Of a stretch of 64,000 nucleotides of DNA, positions 15,998-32,323 are shown piece after piece. Both the position numbers and the translations under genes were made by a program. The notes beneath the pieces were generated by a model, which saw nothing but the letters and a program-made list of their open reading frames with translations, was not told the origin of the DNA and did not search any database. Origin of the DNA: an uncultured Roseburia sp. (GTDB taxonomy: Bacteria > Bacillota > Clostridia > Lachnospirales > Lachnospiraceae); the NCBI GenBank assembly GCA_945787015.1, contig CALZGM010000001.1, positions 62,001 through 126,000 on the forward strand. Direction: 5' to 3'. How positions within the stretch are numbered: the stretch's first letter is position 1; each line of letters opens with the position of its first letter.

Positions 15998-16780
15998 ATG
16001 AAGGTTGTATTATTAGCAGGCGGTTACGGCACCCGTATCAGCGAGGAAAGCCAGTTCAAACCGAAGCCGATGGTGGAAATCGGCGGAAAGCCAATTCTTT
16101 GGCATATAATGAAAGAATATTCCTATTATGGATTTAATGAATTTATTATCTGTGCAGGATATAAACAACATGTGATAAAGGAATGGTTTGCAGACTATTA
16201 TCTTCACAATAGTGATATCACATTTGATTTTTCCAATGGTGGGGCAATGGAGGTACATAATAATGTCGCAGAACCATGGAAGGTTACCATTGTAGATACC
16301 GGACTAAATACGATGACCGGAGGCAGAATCAAACGTGTTCAGAAATATATCGGTGATGAAGATTTTCTGTTAACCTATGGAGATGGTGTTACCGATTTGG
16401 ATATTGCCAAAACAGTAGAATTCCATAAAAGTCATGGTAAGATAGCGACGATGACAGCAGTTCATGTAGAGCAACGATTTGGTGTTTTGGATATTGATAA
16501 GGAAAGCTTAGATGTTACTGCTTTCCGAGAAAAATCTTTGGCAGACGGCTCTCGTATTAATGCCGGATACATGGTGTTAAGACCGGAAATCTTTGATTAT
16601 TTAGAGGGTGATGAAACAATCTTTGAACAGGAACCGCTACGTCGGTTGGTGGCTGATGGAGAATTGAAGGCTTATAAGCACAATGGTTTCTGGCAGTGTA
16701 TGGATACAAAACGAGAAAAGGAGCAGTTAGAGAACATGATTGCAAGAGGAACGGCTCCTTGGATGGTATGGGAGAAATAA
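15998..16780 (+). CDS. rfbF: Glucose-1-phosphate cytidylyltransferase
   Basis: A 260-residue nucleotidyltransferase that makes CDP-glucose from CTP and glucose-1-phosphate. The N-terminal VVLLAGGYGTRISEESQ and KPKPMVEIGGKPILWHIM are diagnostic for RfbF, and TYGDGVTDLD near residue 128 carries the metal-binding Asp. Length equals that of characterised enzymes. It opens a four-gene CDP-sugar block with 3- to 20-base gaps (RfbF, RfbG, RfbH, ThDP enzyme). AAGGAG precedes the ATG. Confidence 0.95.
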   Translation: MKVVLLAGGYGTRISEESQFKPKPMVEIGGKPILWHIMKEYSYYGFNEFIICAGYKQHVIKEWFADYYLHNSDITFDFSNGGAMEVHNNVAEPWKVTIVDTGLNTMTGGRIKRVQKYIGDEDFLLTYGDGVTDLDIAKTVEFHKSHGKIATMTAVHVEQRFGVLDIDKESLDVTAFREKSLADGSRINAGYMVLRPEIFDYLEGDETIFEQEPLRRLVADGELKAYKHNGFWQCMDTKREKEQLENMIARGTAPWMVWEK

Positions 16781-16783
16781 TTC

Positions 16784-17830
16784 ATGTTAGAGTTTTATAA
16801 GGGTAAAAAGGTATTGGTAACAGGACATACAGGATTTAAAGGCTCCTGGCTTTGCAGAATTTTAATAAATGCAGGTGCGGATGTAACCGGATATGCATTA
16901 GAAGCTCCAACCAATCCGAACTTATTCGAACTTTGCGATGTTGAGAAAAGAATGCATTCTGTGATAGGAGATATCAGAGACTTAGCGCATTTACAAAAGG
17001 TATTTGATGAAGTACAGCCGGAGATTGTGTTTCATTTGGCCGCACAGCCGATTGTAAGAGATTCTTATAAAAATCCGGTTTATACCTATGAAACCAATGT
17101 GATGGGAACGGTAAATATCTGCGAGTGCGTCAGATTACATTCTTGCGTAAAGTCTTTTTTGAATGTGACAACGGATAAGGTGTATGAAAACAAAGAATGG
17201 GAGTGGGGTTATCGGGAAAACGAACCATTAGATGGCTTTGATCCCTATTCTAATAGTAAGTCCTGCTCAGAGTTGGTAACCCATAGCTATATCAACTCTT
17301 TTTTTACTGAAAGAAATCTGGCTGTATCCACGGCCAGAGCAGGCAATGTCATCGGCGGGGGTGATTTTGCGAATGACCGCATTGTTCCGGACTGCATCAG
17401 AGCAGCAGAGGGAAAGTGTGACATTATCGTCCGCAATCCACATTCGACCAGACCGTATCAACATGTATTAGAACCACTGGCAATGTATTTAACCATTGCT
17501 GCCAAACAGTATGAAAATTCGTCCTATGCAGGTTTTTACAATGTGGGACCGGATGACTGTGACTGTGTGACAACCGGACAATTAGTGGATTTGTTTTGTG
17601 AAAAATGGGGAGAAGGCATCAAGTGGGTGAATCAGAAGACAAACGGACCACATGAAGCTGCCTTCTTAAAACTGGACTGCTCCAAAGTAAAAAAAGTATT
17701 TGGCTGGAGTCCGAGATGGCATGTAGAAGAAGCCATTGAAAAAACGGTAGAATGGTCAAAAATCTATTTTGCAGGAGGGGATATTCCTGCCTGTATGGAC
17801 GAGCAGATTAAAGAATTTTTCCGTTTGTAA
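16784..17830 (+). CDS. rfbG: CDP-glucose 4,6-dehydratase
   Basis: A 348-residue extended short-chain dehydrogenase: VTGHTGFKGSWLCRIL is the Rossmann glycine motif, NVTTDKVYENKEW the active-site segment with Thr-Asp-Lys, and DPYSNSKSCSEL the Tyr-x3-Lys catalytic pair. It converts CDP-glucose to CDP-4-keto-6-deoxyglucose with tightly bound NAD. It starts three bases after rfbF with GGGAG upstream. Family identity is strong because of the neighbouring rfbF and rfbH. Confidence 0.95.
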   Translation: MLEFYKGKKVLVTGHTGFKGSWLCRILINAGADVTGYALEAPTNPNLFELCDVEKRMHSVIGDIRDLAHLQKVFDEVQPEIVFHLAAQPIVRDSYKNPVYTYETNVMGTVNICECVRLHSCVKSFLNVTTDKVYENKEWEWGYRENEPLDGFDPYSNSKSCSELVTHSYINSFFTERNLAVSTARAGNVIGGGDFANDRIVPDCIRAAEGKCDIIVRNPHSTRPYQHVLEPLAMYLTIAAKQYENSSYAGFYNVGPDDCDCVTTGQLVDLFCEKWGEGIKWVNQKTNGPHEAAFLKLDCSKVKKVFGWSPRWHVEEAIEKTVEWSKIYFAGGDIPACMDEQIKEFFRL

Positions 17831-17850
17831 GAAAGGGGGACAAGGACTGT

Positions 17851-19191
17851 ATGTTTGAAAATATGACCGAGGCTCAGGCAAAGAAACAAATATTAGATAT
17901 GGTATCCGAATACTGTGATAGGTATCATAATAAAAAGGAACCCTATAAAGAAGGGGACCGCATCCCATATGCATCCCGTGTCTATGATCATGAGGAGATG
18001 TGTAATCTGGTGGACTCTGCGTTGGAATTCTGGCTGACTGCGGGACGCTATACTGCAGAATTTGAAACGAAGTTTGCAGAATATTTGGGCGTAAAATACT
18101 GCTCTTTGGTCAATTCCGGTTCTTCTGCCAATTTAAATGCATTCATGGCGCTTACCTCTCCATTACTGGGAGAACGCCAAATCAGACGTGGGGATGAAGT
18201 GATAACAGTAGCAGCAGGCTTTCCGACTACGGTGACCCCTATTATTCAGTATGGTGCCGTTCCGGTATTTGTGGATGTTACCATTCCGCAGTATAACATT
18301 GATGTGAACATGCTTGAGCAGGCTGTATCAGAAAAGACAAAAGCAGTCATGATAGCGCATACGTTGGGAAACCCATTCGACCTGAAAGCAGTAAAAGCAT
18401 TTTGTGATAAATATCATCTGTGGTTGGTTGAGGACAACTGCGATGCGCTAGGCTCAAGATACACAATAGATGGTGAAGAACGCCTGACAGGAACGATAGG
18501 AGATATCGGAACCAGCAGCTTTTACCCACCACACCATATGACGATGGGAGAAGGCGGTGCCGTCTATACCAACAATCCATTATTAAATAAATGCATTCGT
18601 TCTTTCCGTGATTGGGGACGCGACTGCGTCTGTGCATCGGGACAGGACAATTTATGCGGACATCGGTTTGATAAACAGTACGGAGAACTGCCATTGGGAT
18701 ATGACCACAAATATGTATATTCTCATTTCGGATATAACTTAAAAGCAACCGATATGCAGGCAGCAATCGGCTGCGCGCAGATTAAAAAGTTCCCGGGTTT
18801 TGTGGAGCGAAGAATCCATAATTTTAATCGCTTATATGAAGCATTAAAAGGCTGTGAGGAGAAACTGATTCTTCCAAAAGCAGCAGAAAATTCTGTGCCA
18901 AGCTGGTTTGGATTTCCGCTTACCTGTAAAGAGGGATTAGAGCGTAATCAGGTAGTCCCATATATTGAAGGAAAAGGTGTTCAGACTCGAATGCTTTTTG
19001 CAGGAAATTTAACAAAACATCCATGCTTTGATCAGATGCGTGCCGAAGGACGTGGTTATCGAGTGGTTGGAAATTTAAAGAATACAGATTATATTATGAA
19101 CAATACCTTCTGGGTAGGTTTGTACCCAGGTATGACAGATGAAATGATTGATTATATGGCAAAAGTAATCCGGAAAGCAATCAATCAATAA
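17851..19191 (+). CDS. rfbH: CDP-6-deoxy-4-keto-glucose 3-dehydrase (E1)
   Basis: A 446-residue PMP/PLP-dependent, iron-sulfur dehydrase that removes the C3 hydroxyl in 3,6-dideoxyhexose synthesis. Two E1 hallmarks are visible. The usual PLP lysine is replaced by histidine (H228, in PPHHMTMGEGG). The cluster ligands C-x-C-x7-C are at 259, 261 and 269, with a further cysteine at 197. Spacing matches the Yersinia enzyme apart from a four-residue insertion between C197 and H228. The reaction normally needs an E3 ferredoxin-reductase partner, which is not in this window. AAAGGGGG precedes ATG 17851. Confidence 0.94.
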   Translation: MFENMTEAQAKKQILDMVSEYCDRYHNKKEPYKEGDRIPYASRVYDHEEMCNLVDSALEFWLTAGRYTAEFETKFAEYLGVKYCSLVNSGSSANLNAFMALTSPLLGERQIRRGDEVITVAAGFPTTVTPIIQYGAVPVFVDVTIPQYNIDVNMLEQAVSEKTKAVMIAHTLGNPFDLKAVKAFCDKYHLWLVEDNCDALGSRYTIDGEERLTGTIGDIGTSSFYPPHHMTMGEGGAVYTNNPLLNKCIRSFRDWGRDCVCASGQDNLCGHRFDKQYGELPLGYDHKYVYSHFGYNLKATDMQAAIGCAQIKKFPGFVERRIHNFNRLYEALKGCEEKLILPKAAENSVPSWFGFPLTCKEGLERNQVVPYIEGKGVQTRMLFAGNLTKHPCFDQMRAEGRGYRVVGNLKNTDYIMNNTFWVGLYPGMTDEMIDYMAKVIRKAINQ

Positions 19192-19210
19192 GTGACGATA
19201 AGGAGTAGCA

Positions 19211-21094
19211 ATGAAGCAGCGTTTAGCAGATTATGTAGCAGATTTTTTAACAGAACATGGAATCAAAGACTGTTTTATGGTAGTGGGTGGCGGTGCCATG
19301 CATTTGAATGATGCGTTGGGACATAAGGAAGGTCTGTGTTGTACTTACAATCATCATGAACAAGCCTGTGCGATGGCTGCTGAAGCGTATGCAAGAGTCA
19401 ATAATCGTATCGCCGCAGTTTGTGTGACGACCGGACCGGGTGGAACGAATGCGATTACCGGTGTGTTAGGTGGATGGCTGGATTCCATTCCTATGCTAAT
19501 TATTTCCGGACAGGTGCGATACGATACCACGGCTCGTTATATGTCACAGTTTGCAGGGGAACATGCTTACCGCGCCGTAGGTGATCAGGAGTATGATATT
19601 ACAAAATCAGTAAAGCATATGTGCAAGTATGCGGTCATGATAGAGGACCCGACAGAAATCCGGTATCATTTGGAAAAAGCGTACTATCTGGCATTGACGG
19701 GACGAAGAGGACCAAGTTGGATAGATATCCCTGTCAATTTCCAAGGTATGCTTATTGAAACAGAGGACTTAAAAGTTTTCTGCCCGGAAGAAGAGGGATA
19801 TGTGGATGAAAATCCTACTCCTTCTAATGAAGTCGTGACAGAGATTCTTGAGAAAATCCGACAGGCAAAACGCCCGGTATTCTATGCAGGCAATGGAATT
19901 CGTTTGTCTGAAGGATATGATGCATTTCGTAAGGCAATTGAAAAATTAGGTATCCCAGTTGTGACTTGTTGGGATTCTATTGATGCTATTGAAGATACAC
20001 ATCCGCTTTATGTGGGACGTGGCGGCATCATGGGAGATCGGGCCGGCAATTTTGCCGTGCAGAATGCAGACCTTGTTCTGGCAGTCGGAAACCGTTTATC
20101 GATTCGTCAGGTTGGTTATAATTTTAAGTCCTGGGCGAGAGAAGCCTATGTAATTATGGTGGATATTGACCCGGCAGAACTGAGAAAAAATACGATTCAC
20201 GTAGAAATGCCGGTGTGTGCAGATGCGAAAGCATTTTTGGAAGAAGTAAATGCACAGCTTACAGAAATTTTGCCAGACGAAAGAGCGGCTAAGGAGCAAA
20301 AACTGGGGGATAAGGTGCTATTTTGCGGCTCGGATTGGATTACGAAATGTCAGGAATGGAAAGTCAATTATCCGGTTACTCAGCCAAAGCATTGGGAGGA
20401 AGATGGCAAACATGCAAATGTGTATGCCTTTATCAAATATTTAAGCAGCAGACTGCCGGAGGAAAATCTTACGGTAGTGTCAAATGGCAGTGCCTGTGTA
20501 GTGGGCAGCCATAATTATGAGATAAAAAAAGATGCCAGATTTTTAATCAATAGCGGCGTGGCCAGCATGGGATATGGACTTCCGGCAGCAATCGGAGCCT
20601 GTATCGCCCATGACAGACAGACGACCATCTGCATAGAAGGAGATGGTAGTATTATGATGAATCTGCAAGAGCTGCAGACCATACTTACCAACCGGCTTCC
20701 AATCAAAATCTTTTTAATCAATAATGCCGGTTATCATTCCATCCGTCAGACCCAGAATAATTTGTTTAAAGAGCATGATAAGGTGGGCATTGGACCGGAG
20801 AGTGGCGACTTGTCGTTTCCGGATTTTAAAAAGCTGGCAGAAGCATTTGGTTATCCATATTTTTCGGCACACAGCAATTGTGAGATGAAGCAGATGGTGG
20901 ATAAAGCACTTGCTATGGGAGGCCCGGTATTTTGTGAAGTATTTGTATCTACGGAACAGAACTTTGAACCAAAGAGTGCGACAAAACGCTTGGAGGACGG
21001 AACTTTGGTTAGTCCGCCATTAGAGGATTTGGCGCCATTTCTGCCAAGAGAAGAAGTGCTTGGAAATCTGTATGTGAAACCGGTGGGGGAGTAA
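19211..21094 (+). CDS. Thiamine-diphosphate enzyme, YerE-like (acetolactate synthase fold)
   Basis: 627 residues with the ThDP enzyme layout: N-terminal Pyr domain with the catalytic Glu in NHHEQACAMAAEAYAR (E50), a central domain, and a C-terminal PP domain with GDG at 477-479 and NN at 504-505 (GDG-x24-NN). Directly downstream of rfbFGH, the best parallel is YerE, which decarboxylates pyruvate and adds the two-carbon unit to C4 of CDP-3,6-dideoxy-4-ketohexose in yersiniose synthesis. Acetolactate synthase is less likely: no regulatory subunit or branched-chain gene is near. AAGGAG precedes the ATG; a terminator follows. Confidence 0.78.
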   Translation: MKQRLADYVADFLTEHGIKDCFMVVGGGAMHLNDALGHKEGLCCTYNHHEQACAMAAEAYARVNNRIAAVCVTTGPGGTNAITGVLGGWLDSIPMLIISGQVRYDTTARYMSQFAGEHAYRAVGDQEYDITKSVKHMCKYAVMIEDPTEIRYHLEKAYYLALTGRRGPSWIDIPVNFQGMLIETEDLKVFCPEEEGYVDENPTPSNEVVTEILEKIRQAKRPVFYAGNGIRLSEGYDAFRKAIEKLGIPVVTCWDSIDAIEDTHPLYVGRGGIMGDRAGNFAVQNADLVLAVGNRLSIRQVGYNFKSWAREAYVIMVDIDPAELRKNTIHVEMPVCADAKAFLEEVNAQLTEILPDERAAKEQKLGDKVLFCGSDWITKCQEWKVNYPVTQPKHWEEDGKHANVYAFIKYLSSRLPEENLTVVSNGSACVVGSHNYEIKKDARFLINSGVASMGYGLPAAIGACIAHDRQTTICIEGDGSIMMNLQELQTILTNRLPIKIFLINNAGYHSIRQTQNNLFKEHDKVGIGPESGDLSFPDFKKLAEAFGYPYFSAHSNCEMKQMVDKALAMGGPVFCEVFVSTEQNFEPKSATKRLEDGTLVSPPLEDLAPFLPREEVLGNLYVKPVGE

Positions 21095-21116
21095 TTGATG
21101 AAGTAAAATTGGAATT

Positions 21117-21151
21117 CATCCTGCCTGCTTTGCCGGCAGGATGCGATTTTT
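21117..21151 (+). terminator. Rho-independent terminator after the CDP-sugar genes
   Basis: A perfect 9-bp stem (CATCCTGCC at 21117-21125 with GGCAGGATG at 21135-21143) is followed by a T run at 21147-21151, 23 bases after the ThDP-enzyme stop. It closes the long first operon. Confidence 0.85.
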
Positions 21152-21563
21152 ATCCGGATTCCCGGCATGCTGGTAGAGATTGGCTGGCTTTTTGACATGT
21201 TGGGGTAGAGATTGGTTGGATTTTCAAACAGCCAGGAGTGGCTTTAAGATGGATTGGGTACTGCAACAAGTTAAATTGCTCCAGTATCCAAAAAATGAGA
21301 CTTTTTTTGTGAAAATGAAGATTTATTTAAAATTTTGGACCCTATGAAGAAAAATTGACCACTGCGATACAAAAAACTAAATTTTTTGTATCTCAGTGAT
21401 TTTTTTACAAGTCTGGTACCCAAAACATAATGTTTACTTGATTTTCTTCTTATGAATATTTCGTCAAAATGTAGAAAATAGGGCATAACCTAACATATGA
21501 CTTTACCTACTGTCGGTTATGTGTTTTAATTAAGAAAAAATGGAAAGAAGGAGGGAAGTACGA
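21152..21563. other. Non-coding spacer after the first operon
   Basis: About 410 bases with no convincing reading frame. The only structure seen is the A/T-rich hairpin at 21361-21407, given separately. The sequence looks like decayed intergenic DNA between the operon end and a broken gene. Confidence 0.5.
21361..21407 (+). terminator. Long A/T-rich hairpin, possible bidirectional terminator
   Basis: An 11-bp perfect stem (GATACAAAAAA / TTTTTTGTATC around CTAAA) extends outward to 15 pairs with a single C/T mismatch, then a T-rich tract follows from 21400. The A and T runs in the two arms could terminate transcription in either direction. No gene ends close by, so it may be the remnant of a lost gene's terminator. 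Confidence 0.55.
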
Positions 21564-22270
21564 ATGTTTTATGAAAAGCTACAACGTGAAAAGCAGAAAC
21601 TGGAAACAAGAATAAATGTATTGGAAAAGCAATTAAAGACATATCCAGAAGGAAAGCTGATTTGTGTGAAAAACGGTGGATACAATAAGTGGTATCAAAG
21701 CGACGGAAAAACAAAAAAATATATCCCCAAAAAGAACCAACGACTTGCGGAACAATTAGCGATTAAAAAGTATCTGACACTTTTGGAAGAACTGAACCAT
21801 CTGAATATCAAAAATTACTTTCTTCATTTTTTAAACCCATCTCAAGAGAACTTCTCGAATGGCAAAATTCCCCTTTTACACAGAGTAAAGAACATCCGGA
21901 AAATTTAATTGTAAAGGCATGCTCCGGAAATATGGTACGCTCAAAATCTGAAGCCCTTATTCATATGTATCTATTTAAAAACAGAATTCCTTTTCGATAT
22001 GAGTGTGAATTGCATTTAGGAAACCAAATCGTATATCCGGATTTTACAATACGACACCCTAAAACAGGGAAATTGTATTACTGGGAACATTTCGGTTTAA
22101 TGGATGACAGAAACTACGCTAAAAAAACTTGCAAAAAATTATATGATTACAGTACACATGGAATCATTCCAATGATTCAATTGATTACAACTTATGAAAC
22201 GAAAGAAAATCCATTAACTGTTGAAACCGTAGAGGAAGTACTGGCACACTATTTTGATATAATGTTTTAA
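21564..22270 (+). pseudogene. Frameshifted nuclease-like protein
   Basis: Two frames encode consecutive parts of one protein. The first (ATG 21564, AAGGAGGG upstream) gives a coiled N-terminus and a WYQSDGKTKKYIPKKNQ segment. The second, one base off, can be read from about 21800 through SEYQKLLSSFFKPISRELL into VRSKSEALIHMYLFKN, YPDFTIRHPKTG and YYWEHFG. I know these from a roughly 240-residue family common in Lachnospiraceae; the E...D-x...E spacing recalls PD-(D/E)XK nucleases. The frame breaks near 21797-21803, and some residues expected between the halves seem missing. The native start of the 3' half is therefore not at 21932. Confidence 0.72.
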
Positions 22271-22296
22271 ATTTGGTTGTTATCAAAAATTCTATA

Positions 22297-22325
22297 TTGA
22301 AGAAAAATGGCTTGGCATTTATTAT
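22297..22325 (+). promoter_or_regulatory. Probable promoter of the SDR gene
   Basis: TTGAAG (22297-22302), a 17-base spacer and TATTAT (22320-22325) lie about 70 bases before the SDR start. It fits a sigma-A promoter and makes this gene a separate unit from the first operon. Confidence 0.45.
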
Positions 22326-22397
22326 ATTAGTAAAGAGTTTTTTGAAAAGGCTTTACCTTAAGATATGGGATGTAAATATAAAAGAAAGGACGCTTTG

Positions 22398-23315
22398 ATG
22401 AAACGAGTGATTATTACCGGACCGACCGGAGCGATTGGAGTTGCCTTGATACAGGAACTAATTCTTCACGATATCGAAGTAATAGCAGTAGTCAGACCCG
22501 GTTCCAATCGAAAAGAGAATATTCCAAAACATAAACTTGTTCGTGTTGTTGAATGTGGATTAAACCAACTGGATAAACTGCCAGGATTGATAGAGGAACC
22601 TTGCGATACCTTTTACCATTTGGGCTGGGATGGCACCTTTGGTAATTCCAGAAACAATATGCAGGGACAGCTGTTAAACATTCAGTATACCTTAGATGCC
22701 GTAAAAACAGCAAAACTGCTTGGTTGTAAACGCTTTGTTGGAGCAGGATCTCAGGCAGAATATGGAAGAACGGAGAAAAAGCTAAATGCAACAGTACCGA
22801 CATTCCCGGAGAACGGTTATGGAATCGCGAAGCTTTGCGCAGGACAGATGAGTCGCATTCAATGTGAACAGGAAGGGTTGGAACATATCTGGACCAGAAT
22901 TCTAAGTATTTATGGGCCATATGATGGAGAAAATACCATGATTATGTCTGTCATCCATACCTTACTAAGAGGTGAAAAGCCACTATCTACGAAAGGAGAG
23001 CAGCAGTGGGATTACCTGTATGCGAAGGATGCCGGGTATGCAATGTATTTGCTTGGAGAGCGTGGAATTAGTGGTAAGACCTATTGCATCGGCAGTGGGA
23101 AAACGAGACCGTTAAAAGAGTATATTACGATTATTCGTAATCAGATAGATGAAAGCTTGCCGCTTGGTATTGGTGAATTACCATATGCAGACAAACAGGT
23201 CATGCATTTGTGTGCAGATATTACAGAATTGGAAAAAGACACCGGATTCGCACCGAGGTATGTATTTGAAACTGGGATTGCAGAGACAATTGAGTGGGTG
23301 AAAAGGAATTTATAG
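22398..23315 (+). CDS. NAD(P)-dependent SDR epimerase/reductase, possibly YerF-like
   Basis: A 305-residue extended short-chain dehydrogenase: VIITGPTGAIGVALIQEL has the GxxGxxG Rossmann motif and NGYGIAKL the Tyr-x3-Lys pair. ATG 22398 has AAAGGA seven bases upstream; an earlier in-frame ATG at 22365 lacks a site. Lying just past the CDP-sugar block, it is the natural candidate to reduce or epimerise the branched 4-ketosugar product, the YerF step of yersiniose synthesis. That role is inferred from position; other nucleotide-sugar epimerisations are possible. Confidence 0.75.
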   Translation: MKRVIITGPTGAIGVALIQELILHDIEVIAVVRPGSNRKENIPKHKLVRVVECGLNQLDKLPGLIEEPCDTFYHLGWDGTFGNSRNNMQGQLLNIQYTLDAVKTAKLLGCKRFVGAGSQAEYGRTEKKLNATVPTFPENGYGIAKLCAGQMSRIQCEQEGLEHIWTRILSIYGPYDGENTMIMSVIHTLLRGEKPLSTKGEQQWDYLYAKDAGYAMYLLGERGISGKTYCIGSGKTRPLKEYITIIRNQIDESLPLGIGELPYADKQVMHLCADITELEKDTGFAPRYVFETGIAETIEWVKRNL

Positions 23316-23871: not shown

Positions 23872-24357
23872 ATGATGAATTCAATGCTAGAATATAAAGG
23901 ATATCATGCGTCTATTGAGTATGATGCAGAAGATAATATTTTTGTCGGAGAAGTATTTGGTATTACTGATTCTTTGAATTTTCATGGTACAACAGTTACA
24001 GAATTGCGAGAGATGTTTGAACAATGCATTGATAATTACTTGGCGTTATGTGAAAAAATAGATAAAAAACCAGATAAAGAATTTAAAGGAACATTTAATG
24101 TTAGAATTTCTCCGGAAATGCATAAAAAAGCTGCGTTGGAAGCTGCGAAACAAAAAATCACATTAAACCAGTATGTTATGAATGCAATTAATCAGTCTTT
24201 TGAAGTAAAAGAAAACACAAAGGAGACAGTAATTTATATACCATATGGGTTAAAACAAATAAATTGGGATAATCAAGTAGGACCCGACACTGCGTCAATG
24301 TATTATGATACAGCGGTTTGGATGAAGAAGGAGAACTTAGTGTATGCAGGAAATTGA
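23872..24357 (+). CDS. hicB: HicB-family antitoxin
   Basis: A 161-residue protein with two parts: an N-terminal partial RNase-H-like HicB fold (YKGYHASIEYDAEDNIFVGE) and a ribbon-helix-helix DNA-binding segment (FNVRISPEMHKKAALEAA, about residues 83-105). It then has a further 55 residues, longer than most HicB proteins. In toxin-antitoxin-chaperone systems such C-terminal extensions are the chaperone-binding part. AAGGGGTG lies upstream of tandem ATGs at 23872 and 23875. It overlaps the next gene by 14 bases, implying coupled translation. Confidence 0.85.
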   Translation: MMNSMLEYKGYHASIEYDAEDNIFVGEVFGITDSLNFHGTTVTELREMFEQCIDNYLALCEKIDKKPDKEFKGTFNVRISPEMHKKAALEAAKQKITLNQYVMNAINQSFEVKENTKETVIYIPYGLKQINWDNQVGPDTASMYYDTAVWMKKENLVYAGN

Positions 24358-25001: not shown

Positions 25002-25961
25002 ATGAAGAAAATTAGTGTTATGATTCCCTGCTACAACGAAACAGAAAATGTAGTGCCGATAAGCGAGGCGGTTGTGGCAGAATTTGAAAAAAGTTTGAAG
25101 CAGTATGATTACGAAATTCTGTTTATCGATAATTGTTCCACAGATGGAACCAGAGACAAGCTGGAAGAAATCTGTGCAAAAAATAAGAAAATAAAGGCTA
25201 TCTTTAACGTGACAAACTTTGGGCAGTTTAATTCACCATTTTATGGTATGTGCCAGACAACCGGAGATTGCACGATTACCATGTGCTGTGATTTCCAGGA
25301 TCCGGTTGAGATGATACCAAAATTTGTGGAAAAATGGGAAGAAGGACATAAGATTGTAAGCGGAGTAAAGACATCCAGTAAAGAAAATCCAATCATCTAT
25401 TTTCTTCGAACCGTTTATTATAAAGTCATCAAAAATATGTCCAGCGTAAAGATGATAGAACACTTTACCGGATTCGGCTTATATGATAAATCTTTTATCA
25501 AATTATTAAAGGAGCTGCATGACCCGGTTCCATTTATTCGTGGGATTGTTGCGGAATATGGTTCCGGCTTTAACCTGATTGAGGTAGAATATGAACAGCC
25601 AAAACGGCGTGCCGGAAAAACACACAATAATTTCTATAGCCTATATGATGCAGCAATGCTAAGCTTTACGTCCTATACGAAGGTTGGTTTAAGATTGGCT
25701 ACATGGCTGGGATTTATTAGTTCAGCGATTAGTTTGCTGATTGCATTTTTGTACCTTGTTCTAAAACTCGTGAATTGGAATTGGTTTCAAGCTGGTAATG
25801 TTCCTGTATTAATTGGTGTCTATGTGATTGGCTCATTACAGTTATTCTTTATTGGACTAATAGGAGAATATATCTTAAACATTAATACGAGAGTCATTAA
25901 TCGACCACTTGTTGTGGAAGAAAAACGTATTAATTTTGACACAGAAGATAAGGATTTATAG
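25002..25961 (+). CDS. GtrB-like GT2 with two C-terminal membrane helices
   Basis: A 319-residue polyprenyl-phosphate glycosyltransferase of the DPM1/GtrB/ArnC type. ISVMIPCYNETENVVPIS starts the GT-A domain and two hydrophobic segments (about 232-255 and 265-290) anchor it. Such enzymes move a sugar from a nucleotide donor to undecaprenyl phosphate. The usual DADLQDP metal motif reads CCDFQDP: its first Asp is Cys95, while Asp97 and Gln99 stay. The RNFGKEAA segment is also altered to TNFGQFNS. Either the donor or metal use differs. It starts a new operon after the terminator at 24.9 kb. Confidence 0.83.
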   Translation: MKKISVMIPCYNETENVVPISEAVVAEFEKSLKQYDYEILFIDNCSTDGTRDKLEEICAKNKKIKAIFNVTNFGQFNSPFYGMCQTTGDCTITMCCDFQDPVEMIPKFVEKWEEGHKIVSGVKTSSKENPIIYFLRTVYYKVIKNMSSVKMIEHFTGFGLYDKSFIKLLKELHDPVPFIRGIVAEYGSGFNLIEVEYEQPKRRAGKTHNNFYSLYDAAMLSFTSYTKVGLRLATWLGFISSAISLLIAFLYLVLKLVNWNWFQAGNVPVLIGVYVIGSLQLFFIGLIGEYILNINTRVINRPLVVEEKRINFDTEDKDL

Positions 25962-30177: not shown

Positions 30178-30987
30178 ATGAGTAGAGTATTAAGTGTAAT
30201 CAAGGTTATTGAGGATATATGGAAAGATAGGCAACTGTTGATTTCCTTATCATTAAAGGATTTTCAAAGAAAATTTTCTGGAACATATTTTGGCATATTT
30301 TGGGCAATTGCTCAGCCATTATTAACAATTATTGTTTATTGGGTAGCTTTTCAATATGGGTTTAGAAGCGGCCCAATTGATGGTGTGCCATATGCAGTCT
30401 GGTTTATGTGTGGAATTGTACCTTGGTTATTTATTTCGGAAGCATTCAGTTCGGCAAGTAATAGTTTTATAGAATATAGTTATCTGATTAAGAAGGTAAA
30501 ATTTAATACCAATATTTTGCCATTGGTAAAGATTTTATCAGCTTTTTGTATACATGCACTATTTTGCTTAATTGTATTAGCAGTAGCAATGTTCTTTAGA
30601 ATTATGCCAACGAAATATTTGGTACAACTATTATATTATATGCTTGCAAATATTATTTTATTATTTGCTCTTTCATTAACAACGTCATCAATTGTGGTGT
30701 TTTTTAGGGATTTAAATCAAATTATTTCTGTTATTCTTTTAATGGGAATGTGGGGGACACCAATTGCATGGTCCTTGGATACATTTGATATAGGTGTTCA
30801 GAATGTATTTAAGCTAAACCCATTCTTGTATATCATAGAAGGATACAGAGATGCAATTCTTGGTAGAGAATGGTTTTGGGAAAAACCATTATTAAGCACA
30901 TATTTTTGGACGCTCGTATTAATTTTGCTCATTATTGGCGGAGTGCTATACACGAAATTAAAACCACATTTTGCAGATACAGTATAG
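30178..30987 (+). CDS. Polysaccharide ABC transporter permease (Wzm/TagG-like)
   Basis: 269 residues with six hydrophobic helices; the N-terminal amphipathic region LISLSLKDFQRKFSGTYFGI and FWAIAQPLLTIIVYW are typical of ABC-2 polysaccharide and teichoic acid permeases. It pairs with the ATPase 13 bases downstream to export a complete lipid-linked polymer. ATG 30178 is six bases after the epimerase stop. Confidence 0.93.
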   Translation: MSRVLSVIKVIEDIWKDRQLLISLSLKDFQRKFSGTYFGIFWAIAQPLLTIIVYWVAFQYGFRSGPIDGVPYAVWFMCGIVPWLFISEAFSSASNSFIEYSYLIKKVKFNTNILPLVKILSAFCIHALFCLIVLAVAMFFRIMPTKYLVQLLYYMLANIILLFALSLTTSSIVVFFRDLNQIISVILLMGMWGTPIAWSLDTFDIGVQNVFKLNPFLYIIEGYRDAILGREWFWEKPLLSTYFWTLVLILLIIGGVLYTKLKPHFADTV

Positions 30988-31000
30988 GATGAGATAATAA

Positions 31001-32323
31001 ATGGAAAATAAAGCAATTGTTGTCAAAAATTTATCAAAAACATTTGATATGTATAATAATTCTACGGATAAAATGTTAGAAGCGTTAAGTATTACACATA
31101 AAGTGCGACATACAGAATTTCATGCGTTGAGTGATATTAATTTCGAGGTCGAGAAAGGTGAGATTGTCGGAATTGTAGGGCGAAATGGCGCAGGAAAATC
31201 TACGTTATTAAAGCTAATAACTGGAATACTGGAACCATCTAGTGGAACCGTCAAAACCAGTACGCGTATTTCTTCTCTGTTGGAATTGGGTACAGGATTT
31301 AATATGGAATACACGGGACGCGATAATATATATTTTTATGGAACATTAATGGGATTTACCAAGAAACAGATGGACGAAAAAATAGATGATATTATTGCGT
31401 TCGCTGAGATTGGAGATTATATTGATCAGGTGGTAAAAACATATTCAAGCGGTATGTTTGCAAGATTGGCATTTTCCTGTGCCATTAATGTAGAACCTGA
31501 AATCCTGATTGTTGATGAAATTTTAAGCGTTGGAGATATGAGATTTCAAGCGAAATGCTTCAATAAGTTTAAAGATTTTAAAAAACAGGGTGTTACCATC
31601 TTGTATGTGGGGCATGATGTTGGTTTAATGCGCTCTTTCTGCGATAGATGCATTTGGTTGGATAAGGGAAAAATGGTAGCAGATGGTGAACCTACGTTTA
31701 TCACTGCTCAGTTTACGGAATTTATGTATTTGGATAACATCGAAGAGTTTACCACTTATAAGAAATTTAGTGACCAAGAGCAAAAGATGGAGGAAAAAGC
31801 AGAGACGAAAGAGCCAGAAGAACAGTTAGAGGTAGAAAAGGTAAGTTTAAAGCCTGTTGTGGCAGAAAAAAGTATGTTTAAGAATTGTCTGGCGCATTGG
31901 GGAACGGACGTAGGCATTATAACAAAGGTTGAAATGCTAGGCGAGGACGGTACTGAGCGTGGATACTTTGCTCCGGATGAGAAGATTAAAATTTGTATCG
32001 AGATTGAAGATAGAGATAACATTGATTATAAAAATGTATCAGTTGCCTTTTCAATAAAAAATAAAGAAGGAACGGATTTGTGTGTAAAGACAACCTATGA
32101 TAATGATATTTTCCTAGAGAGGAAAGAGAAACAAAGAATTGTTTTTGAAACAGCTTTGATGCTCGCAAAGGGTGATTATTATCTGGTTGTTGCAATTGAA
32201 AATCGTGAAAATGTAAATCCAACATATTATGAATATGTTGAGGGAGCCAAATTTTTTAAGATTTATTCAGATAAAAAAATATTTGGTATCTACGATGTGG
32301 ATGCCCAAATAACAATAGATTAG
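31001..32323 (+). CDS. Polysaccharide ABC transporter ATPase with C-terminal substrate domain (Wzt/TagH-like)
   Basis: 440 residues. The ATPase domain (about 1-245) has Walker A GRNGAGKST, the signature YSSGM and Walker B ILIVDEILSVGD. A charged linker (about 250-290) leads to a beta-rich C-terminal domain (about 295-440) like Wzt carbohydrate-binding domains. In known systems this domain recognises a terminal modification of the finished glycan, often a methyl group, before export. A gene with a methyltransferase domain follows immediately, which fits that logic. Confidence 0.92.
   Translation: MENKAIVVKNLSKTFDMYNNSTDKMLEALSITHKVRHTEFHALSDINFEVEKGEIVGIVGRNGAGKSTLLKLITGILEPSSGTVKTSTRISSLLELGTGFNMEYTGRDNIYFYGTLMGFTKKQMDEKIDDIIAFAEIGDYIDQVVKTYSSGMFARLAFSCAINVEPEILIVDEILSVGDMRFQAKCFNKFKDFKKQGVTILYVGHDVGLMRSFCDRCIWLDKGKMVADGEPTFITAQFTEFMYLDNIEEFTTYKKFSDQEQKMEEKAETKEPEEQLEVEKVSLKPVVAEKSMFKNCLAHWGTDVGIITKVEMLGEDGTERGYFAPDEKIKICIEIEDRDNIDYKNVSVAFSIKNKEGTDLCVKTTYDNDIFLERKEKQRIVFETALMLAKGDYYLVVAIENRENVNPTYYEYVEGAKFFKIYSDKKIFGIYDVDAQITID

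Follow-up and report, generated by a model that had tools for sequence, protein, structure and literature searches.

Can a gut-type Firmicute build a branched dideoxysugar for its surface? This question is raised by a set of five genes at positions 15998-23315 of a 64,000-nucleotide stretch of DNA, hereafter the window, from an uncultured Roseburia sp. of the Lachnospiraceae (assembly GCA_945787015.1, contig CALZGM010000001.1, positions 62,001 to 126,000 of the forward strand). The set encodes, in this order, RfbF, RfbG, RfbH, a thiamine diphosphate (ThDP)-dependent enzyme of 627 residues and a short-chain dehydrogenase/reductase (SDR). We think it probable, judging from the sequences, that these genes make a cytidine diphosphate (CDP)-activated 3,6-dideoxyhexose with a carbon branch at C4 for a surface polysaccharide.

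A five-gene set and its predicted route

The open reading frames (ORFs) of the set, with the coordinates of the initial annotation, are as follows, and all five pathway ORFs are full length.

15998..16780, + strand: RfbF, glucose-1-phosphate cytidylyltransferase (TIGR02623, 382.6 bits against a cut-off of 300.25)
16784..17830, + strand: RfbG, CDP-glucose 4,6-dehydratase (TIGR02622, 452.8 bits against a cut-off of 278.45)
17851..19191, + strand: RfbH (E1), CDP-4-keto-6-deoxyglucose 3-dehydrase (NF011936, 724.4 bits against a cut-off of 423; His228, four Cys)
19211..21094, + strand: YerE-like ThDP-dependent carboligase of the JanthE type, proposed to branch a sugar at C4
21095..22364, no strand: interval between the ThDP and SDR genes with two small ORFs (21540-21908 and 21932-22270), representing a multi-copy element in broken form
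22365..23315, + strand: extended SDR (PF01370; Ser129, Tyr152, Lys156), putative ketoreductase (or epimerase) for the step that follows the ThDP enzyme

The initial annotation had recognized rfbF, rfbG and rfbH, the last with its His228 and a four-cysteine signature, and this assignment is borne out by scores above the curated NCBIfam cut-offs and by the presence of the residues: His228/His229 lie within SSFYPPHH, and the cysteines are arranged as C197-X61-C259-X1-C261-X7-C269. This arrangement is not an exact fit to C-X57-C-X1-C-X7-C, which we take to be the reference spacing. The strict form C-X57-C-X-C-X7-C, found in just 12 of the 65 ORFs with the HH motif, is not a fair test of RfbH since the RfbH studied here has X61. 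The gene order had also been read correctly, except that the SDR gene does not immediately follow the ThDP gene, from which it is separated by 1.27 kb carrying the two small ORFs.

What these genes would do together is a prediction that extends from substrate, donor and product to the role of the SDR, the electron source of RfbH and the final polymer. RfbF would make CDP-glucose, RfbG would convert it into CDP-4-keto-6-deoxyglucose, and RfbH would remove the 3-hydroxyl group to give CDP-4-keto-3,6-dideoxyglucose. The ThDP enzyme would then decarboxylate a 2-oxo acid, pyruvate being the likeliest, and transfer the acyl anion onto the C4 ketone, which would yield a tertiary alcohol bearing an acyl branch. 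The SDR would most likely reduce the ketone of this branch, a role as epimerase being less likely, and the neighboring glycosyltransferases would place the sugar in a surface polysaccharide exported by a Wzm/Wzt-type transporter.

The ThDP enzyme is YerE-like

The candidate branching enzyme contains the three thiamine pyrophosphate Pfam domains (PF02776, PF00205 and PF02775), and the GDG-x24-NN signature and catalytic Glu ascribed to it at the outset could be located (GDG477-479, x24, NN504-505; Glu50 in HHEQ). Among the sequences compared, it is nearest to the characterized YerE-like enzyme JanthE from Janthinobacterium sp. HH01 (PDB 8rph, 8rpi and 8rpj), with 38% identity and 442 bits, against 28-30% and at most 225 bits with any acetolactate (acetohydroxyacid) synthase (AHAS); its identity is 29% to 5ahk, which we take to be PpYerE of Pseudomonas protegens. 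Profile scores follow the same ranking (JanthE 630, 5ahk 463, best AHAS 415). In trees of 52 and 32 rows, built on selected rows, the window enzyme joins JanthE with a support of 100/100, on which the second tree agrees, and four AHAS rows, two of them from the source genome, are separated from the YerE-like rows, also with 100/100. PpYerE falls outside the JanthE-window branch, at a weakly supported position.

Inspection of single positions gives a similar picture. Lys588 and Tyr303 are the kept counterparts of K567 and Y297 of JanthE, and the place of AHAS Trp574 is occupied by a Thr, as in JanthE. With Trp574 (At), Phe206 and Lys256 assumed as the AHAS labels for position mapping, the window enzyme has Thr514, Asp125 and Val175, respectively; the Trp is also missing from E. 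coli AHAS I and from one AHAS of the source genome, while the plant sequence used carries the mutation W574L. JanthE differs by a CDG in place of the usual GDG found here, and by V121 and P293 where the window enzyme has Asp125 and Arg299. The last residue corresponds to the AHAS arginine, and 5ahk has an arginine too. On these comparisons the enzyme is YerE-like, of the JanthE branch, and not an AHAS, as the initial annotation had proposed when it called for a tree against acetolactate synthases; the enzyme lies outside the AHAS clade in trees that have JanthE and PpYerE as YerE-like references.

Association with RfbH and spread among genomes

The carboligase and RfbH are largely found in the same genomes, as judged from a sample of 200 genomes of a single family, the Lachnospiraceae (source genome included; the statistics ignore kinship). 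With the ThDP enzyme called at E ≤1e-80, RfbH above its cut-off and the SDR at E ≤1e-45, the ThDP enzyme occurs in 65/200 genomes and RfbH in 69/200; 61 have both, 4 the ThDP enzyme only, 8 RfbH only and 127 neither (Fisher p 2.8e-37). Because the two genes lie on separate contigs in several genomes (e.g. G132, G063 and G194), the tie exceeds mere neighborhood. The grouping with JanthE and the co-occurrence with RfbH thus favor C4 branching of CDP-4-keto-3,6-dideoxyglucose, and the proposed link of a YerE-like enzyme to the CDP-3,6-dideoxyhexose route is upheld both by position and genome-wide. The expectation that such a sugar would be unusual in a gut-type Gram-positive fails for the genes, given that 65 of the 200 family genomes have the enzyme, while it may hold for published structures, as far as the partial literature goes. 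In a sample of the phylum, the enzyme was present in 13/398 genomes, among them the source genome and two of its family.

Genomic regions were fetched for 54 of the 65 positive genomes (55 regions), the source genome being one of the 11 left unfetched, and for 5 of the 13 phylum positives; several contigs are short or end inside the cluster. At more than 70 bits, these 60 regions contain the SDR in 44 cases (27 at ≥38% identity, 17 below), RfbF in 31, RfbH in 27 (one of them, at L061, just 25% identical) and RfbG in 25. The same neighbors recur around the best 80 of at least 588 confirmed relatives from many phyla, a set of named loci that overlaps the genome set (e.g. L106/L060 and L116/L084): RfbH at 44, the SDR at 39 (25 at ≥38%), RfbG at 35 and RfbF at 34. 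Of these matches, 14 for the SDR and a single one each for RfbH and RfbG are less than 38% identical.

A sister arrangement was also observed, in which a ThDP enzyme 50-58% identical to that of the window stands with a diverged SDR and without RfbF, RfbG or RfbH nearby (L044-L046, L048, L072-L077, L079, L112, L114, L119 and L173). At some of these loci a further SDR is present together with a C-methyltransferase, which was assigned to PF08484 in the single case scanned, and in some genomes RfbH lies on another contig. A YerE-like enzyme of 41% identity was found at L166 on a contig labelled Pacearchaeota archaeon, with RfbF, RfbG and RfbH undetected on the fetched stretch.

The SDR and the interval that precedes it

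The SDR belongs to PF01370 and its Ser129-Tyr152-Lys156 residues are invariant across 16 aligned sequences, its own included. Its structure model (predicted local distance difference test, pLDDT, 93) has a nucleotide-sugar SDR fold, and a fold search retrieved general nucleotide-sugar SDRs, epimerases and dehydratases alike, so that reductase and epimerase are not separated. RmlB-type dehydratases have an Asp-Glu pair; a 4,6-dehydratase function was judged unlikely because the SQAEYG motif of the SDR lacks it.

The distribution of the SDR is more telling. It is present in 43/200 genomes, namely in 40 of the 65 with the ThDP enzyme and in 3 of the 135 without, and within the RfbH-positive genomes in 38/61 with the ThDP enzyme versus 1/8 without (p 0.018, a small sample). 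Since the SDR tracks the ThDP enzyme within RfbH-positive genomes, albeit in this small sample, a step following branching is favored over plain C4 reduction. Furthermore, when fetched loci were searched for an SDR at least 38% identical within 4 kb downstream of the ThDP gene, the gap was below 150 bases in 36 of 45 pairs (35 of 44 without one duplicate), with a median of -1; in three loci (L036, L039 and L049) the SDR lies upstream. The SDR of the window is intact, lies downstream of the ThDP gene and belongs to a family that tracks the ThDP enzyme across genomes; it may be a counterpart of YerF, the reductase of the acetyl branch in the yersiniose A pathway.

In the 1.27-kb interval of the window, the two small ORFs have no Pfam or NCBIfam match at E 0.001. 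The second has five further copies in the genome, with 61-84% identity and frames of 197-329 aa versus 167 aa here. The interval is most likely an insertion and contains one broken copy of an element with six copies in all.

Electron supply to RfbH

Classical E1 (RfbH) depends on an E3 reductase (AscD/RfbI), and searches of the cluster surroundings and of the genome revealed no reductase of this type. A search for ORFs of 280-480 aa with CX4CX2C and RX[YF]S motifs, run without a positive control, returned none from the window and none from 141 loci. The source genome has a single FAD_binding_6 protein (the search being positive in 8/14 control genomes), which is taken as PyrK because its 265-aa frame adjoins dihydroorotase. 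The lack is not specific to the source strain, since FAD_binding_6 proteins are mostly PyrK-sized or absent in a further 20 family genomes possessing the ThDP enzyme and RfbH: such proteins are missing from 7 of them and present in 13 (15 matches of 259-312 aa, except one of 409). Ten more genomes were reached through the named loci, of which two have no FAD_binding_6 protein and five a single one, in frames of 260-425 aa; three Gram-negative genomes have more, some of 337-383 aa, and an E3 is possible among these.

From the empty motif search and the survey of the 20 genomes, E3 looks absent from the family, whose RfbH probably draws its electrons from a general carrier. This weighs against a strict yersiniose pathway. 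The likeness in gene order noted initially, RfbFGH followed by a YerE-like ThDP enzyme and an SDR, stands, and the set is not the textbook one because the window, the loci and the genome all failed to yield a reductase of the AscD/RfbI type.

Alternative explanations

The least credible of the alternatives, to which we give only a very slight chance, is that the ThDP enzyme is a non-sugar carboligase, such as an acetolactate synthase, placed here by accident. The acetolactate synthase model TIGR00118 is the best NCBIfam match of the ThDP enzyme (341.8 bits, though under its cut-off of 538.35) and Arg299 matches the AHAS arginine, as does that of 5ahk, but an acetolactate synthase identity is ruled out by the scores, the tree and the co-occurrence with RfbH. 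In addition, two other proteins of the source genome already group with AHAS, and Thr, Asp and Val hold the AHAS Trp574, Phe206 and Lys256 places. More serious, and still unlikely, is C4 branching with a longer, hydroxylated donor of the ErwE/caryophyllose type, resulting in an erwiniose-like sugar rather than in yersiniose. ErwE uses 4-hydroxy-2-oxo acids and not pyruvate, according to the review PMC12247030 (section 6), and Asp125 places a polar residue at the Val position of JanthE. Moreover, an HMGL-like protein stands near the ThDP gene in 17/60 fetched loci and a HAD-type hydrolase in 13/60, typically upstream of that gene; one representative of each class was scanned, and the best NCBIfam model of the HMGL-like one is 4-hydroxy-2-oxovalerate aldolase (97.5 bits, under the cut-off of 229). 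Aldolase-like genes are also found on contigs beside enzymes 66-69% identical to that of the window (L097, L101-L103 and L141). In view of the 17 loci, a two-carbon branch is no more than a prediction. On the other hand, no donor aldolase was found among the scanned window ORFs, and the aldolase of the relatives retrieved no match from the source genome, in a search without a positive control. Of three HMGL-like proteins in that genome, two match LeuA-like and oxaloacetate-decarboxylase models, the third (a 676-aa frame) being unscanned. Because no donor-making aldolase was found in the genome, pyruvate is most likely the donor, and the simplest one. As a separate observation, aldolase-like and HAD-type hydrolase genes precede the ThDP gene at L056, L058, L062, L064, L065, L129, L131 and others; such a pair is possibly a donor-making module for longer branches.

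The remaining alternatives concern the end of the route. Its first three steps are common to the CDP-paratose and CDP-abequose routes (RfbF-RfbG-RfbH-RfbS/RfbJ), which use no ThDP enzyme and finish by simply reducing C4. The SDR could accordingly be a C4 ketoreductase for a plain abequose- or paratose-type 3,6-dideoxyhexose, with the ThDP enzyme serving another keto sugar, a division into two outputs that we find improbable. Its fold is compatible with this, as it does not tell reductase from epimerase, and a RfbF-RfbG-RfbH-RfbS paratose route is predicted in Clostridium butyricum (PMC13317340). Against it, the SDR is rare where the ThDP enzyme is missing, both in the 200 genomes and among the few RfbH-positive ones, its gene and the ThDP gene mostly abut in relatives, and the ThDP enzyme itself tracks RfbH. 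A slightly poorer prospect still is a silent or decaying route, in which the last step is cut off by the insertion and RfbH is inactive without E3. The broken multi-copy element and the missing E3 would agree with decay, but the five ORFs are full length, the catalytic residues checked in the SDR, the ThDP enzyme and RfbH are intact, and the FAD_binding_6 complement is similar in the 20 other family genomes. A C4-branched 3,6-dideoxyhexose thus stays our preferred product.

Genomic neighborhood and predicted polymer

The five genes are surrounded by genes for glycosyltransferases, a polysaccharide pyruvyl transferase, an acyltransferase, a UDP-N-acetylglucosamine (UDP-GlcNAc) 2-epimerase and a Wzm/Wzt-type exporter, two features being of particular relevance.

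25002..25961, + strand: family 2 glycosyltransferase (PF00535), homologous to one beside many relatives
30178..32323, + strand: Wzm/Wzt-type ATP-binding cassette exporter, membrane protein (PF01061) and ATPase with Wzt_C (PF00005 and PF14524)

Homologues of the glycosyltransferase were matched at 41/60 fetched loci, in all 41 cases, and it is 69% identical to one of them. From this context, the genes likely serve a predicted surface polysaccharide, for which the Wzm/Wzt-type transporter is the probable export route.

Between the SDR and glycosyltransferase genes, a HicB-family protein (PF05534) is encoded at 23872-24357, preceded by a small ORF that resembles HicA by eye; the segment 23597-24357 is possibly a HicAB module.

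Comparison with known systems and significance

The set resembles the yersiniose A pathway of Yersinia pseudotuberculosis in that genes for CDP-4-keto-3,6-dideoxyglucose are followed by a ThDP carboligase. It differs by the lack of a detected E3, by a ThDP enzyme just 29% identical to 5ahk and of another branch, and by its host, a Lachnospiraceae-type Firmicute as opposed to a Gram-negative; the sequence comparison with YerE was made through 5ahk. In the review PMC12247030 (section 6), YerE is described as adding a two-carbon unit from pyruvate onto CDP-4-keto-3,6-dideoxyglucose, and YerE-like enzymes as the sole subclass among the decarboxylase-type ThDP enzymes for which addition to isolated ketones is known. 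The same review reports that YerE-like sugars occur mainly in lipopolysaccharide, that such enzymes are placed in mycobacteria too, and that ErwE (erwiniose) and MMAR_2332 (caryophyllose, mycobacterial) branch 3,6-dideoxy keto sugars in a YerE-like manner. These two, likened here by description, use longer hydroxylated donors, whereas a donor aldolase was not found here in the cluster or the genome. Other papers mention yersinose in the capsule of Bacteroides fragilis (PMC12413058), and C4-branched octoses in antibiotics of Gram-positives whose branch is credited to a different, two-protein system (PMC4753412).

A partial literature search turned up no published account of YerE-like enzymes in Lachnospiraceae. 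Polysaccharides of Eubacterium saburreum with 3,6-dideoxyhexoses are an unconfirmed lead, the mention found in the literature concerning xylulose only. Because the literature already has YerE-like enzymes, in lipopolysaccharide sugars and in mycobacteria, the kind of enzyme is known, and what is new to us is the host group and the scale of the spread.

On a broader scale, about one third of the Lachnospiraceae, along with members of many other phyla, may make undescribed C4-branched 3,6-dideoxy surface sugars. These would share a JanthE-type core, with a branch varied from strain to strain by a dedicated aldolase and phosphatase that make the donor, by C-methyltransferases or by none, and with RfbH running on a housekeeping carrier instead of E3. 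We hold this proposal tentatively, at somewhat short of an even chance. If the route is real, a major family of human gut commensals would display branched octoses or larger sugars that are absent from sugar analyses of gut Gram-positives in the partial literature, and these residues could serve as immune epitopes or phage receptors. The genes furthermore constitute a large pool of carboligases, and with E3 apparently missing, it becomes directly testable where RfbH obtains its electrons in anaerobes.

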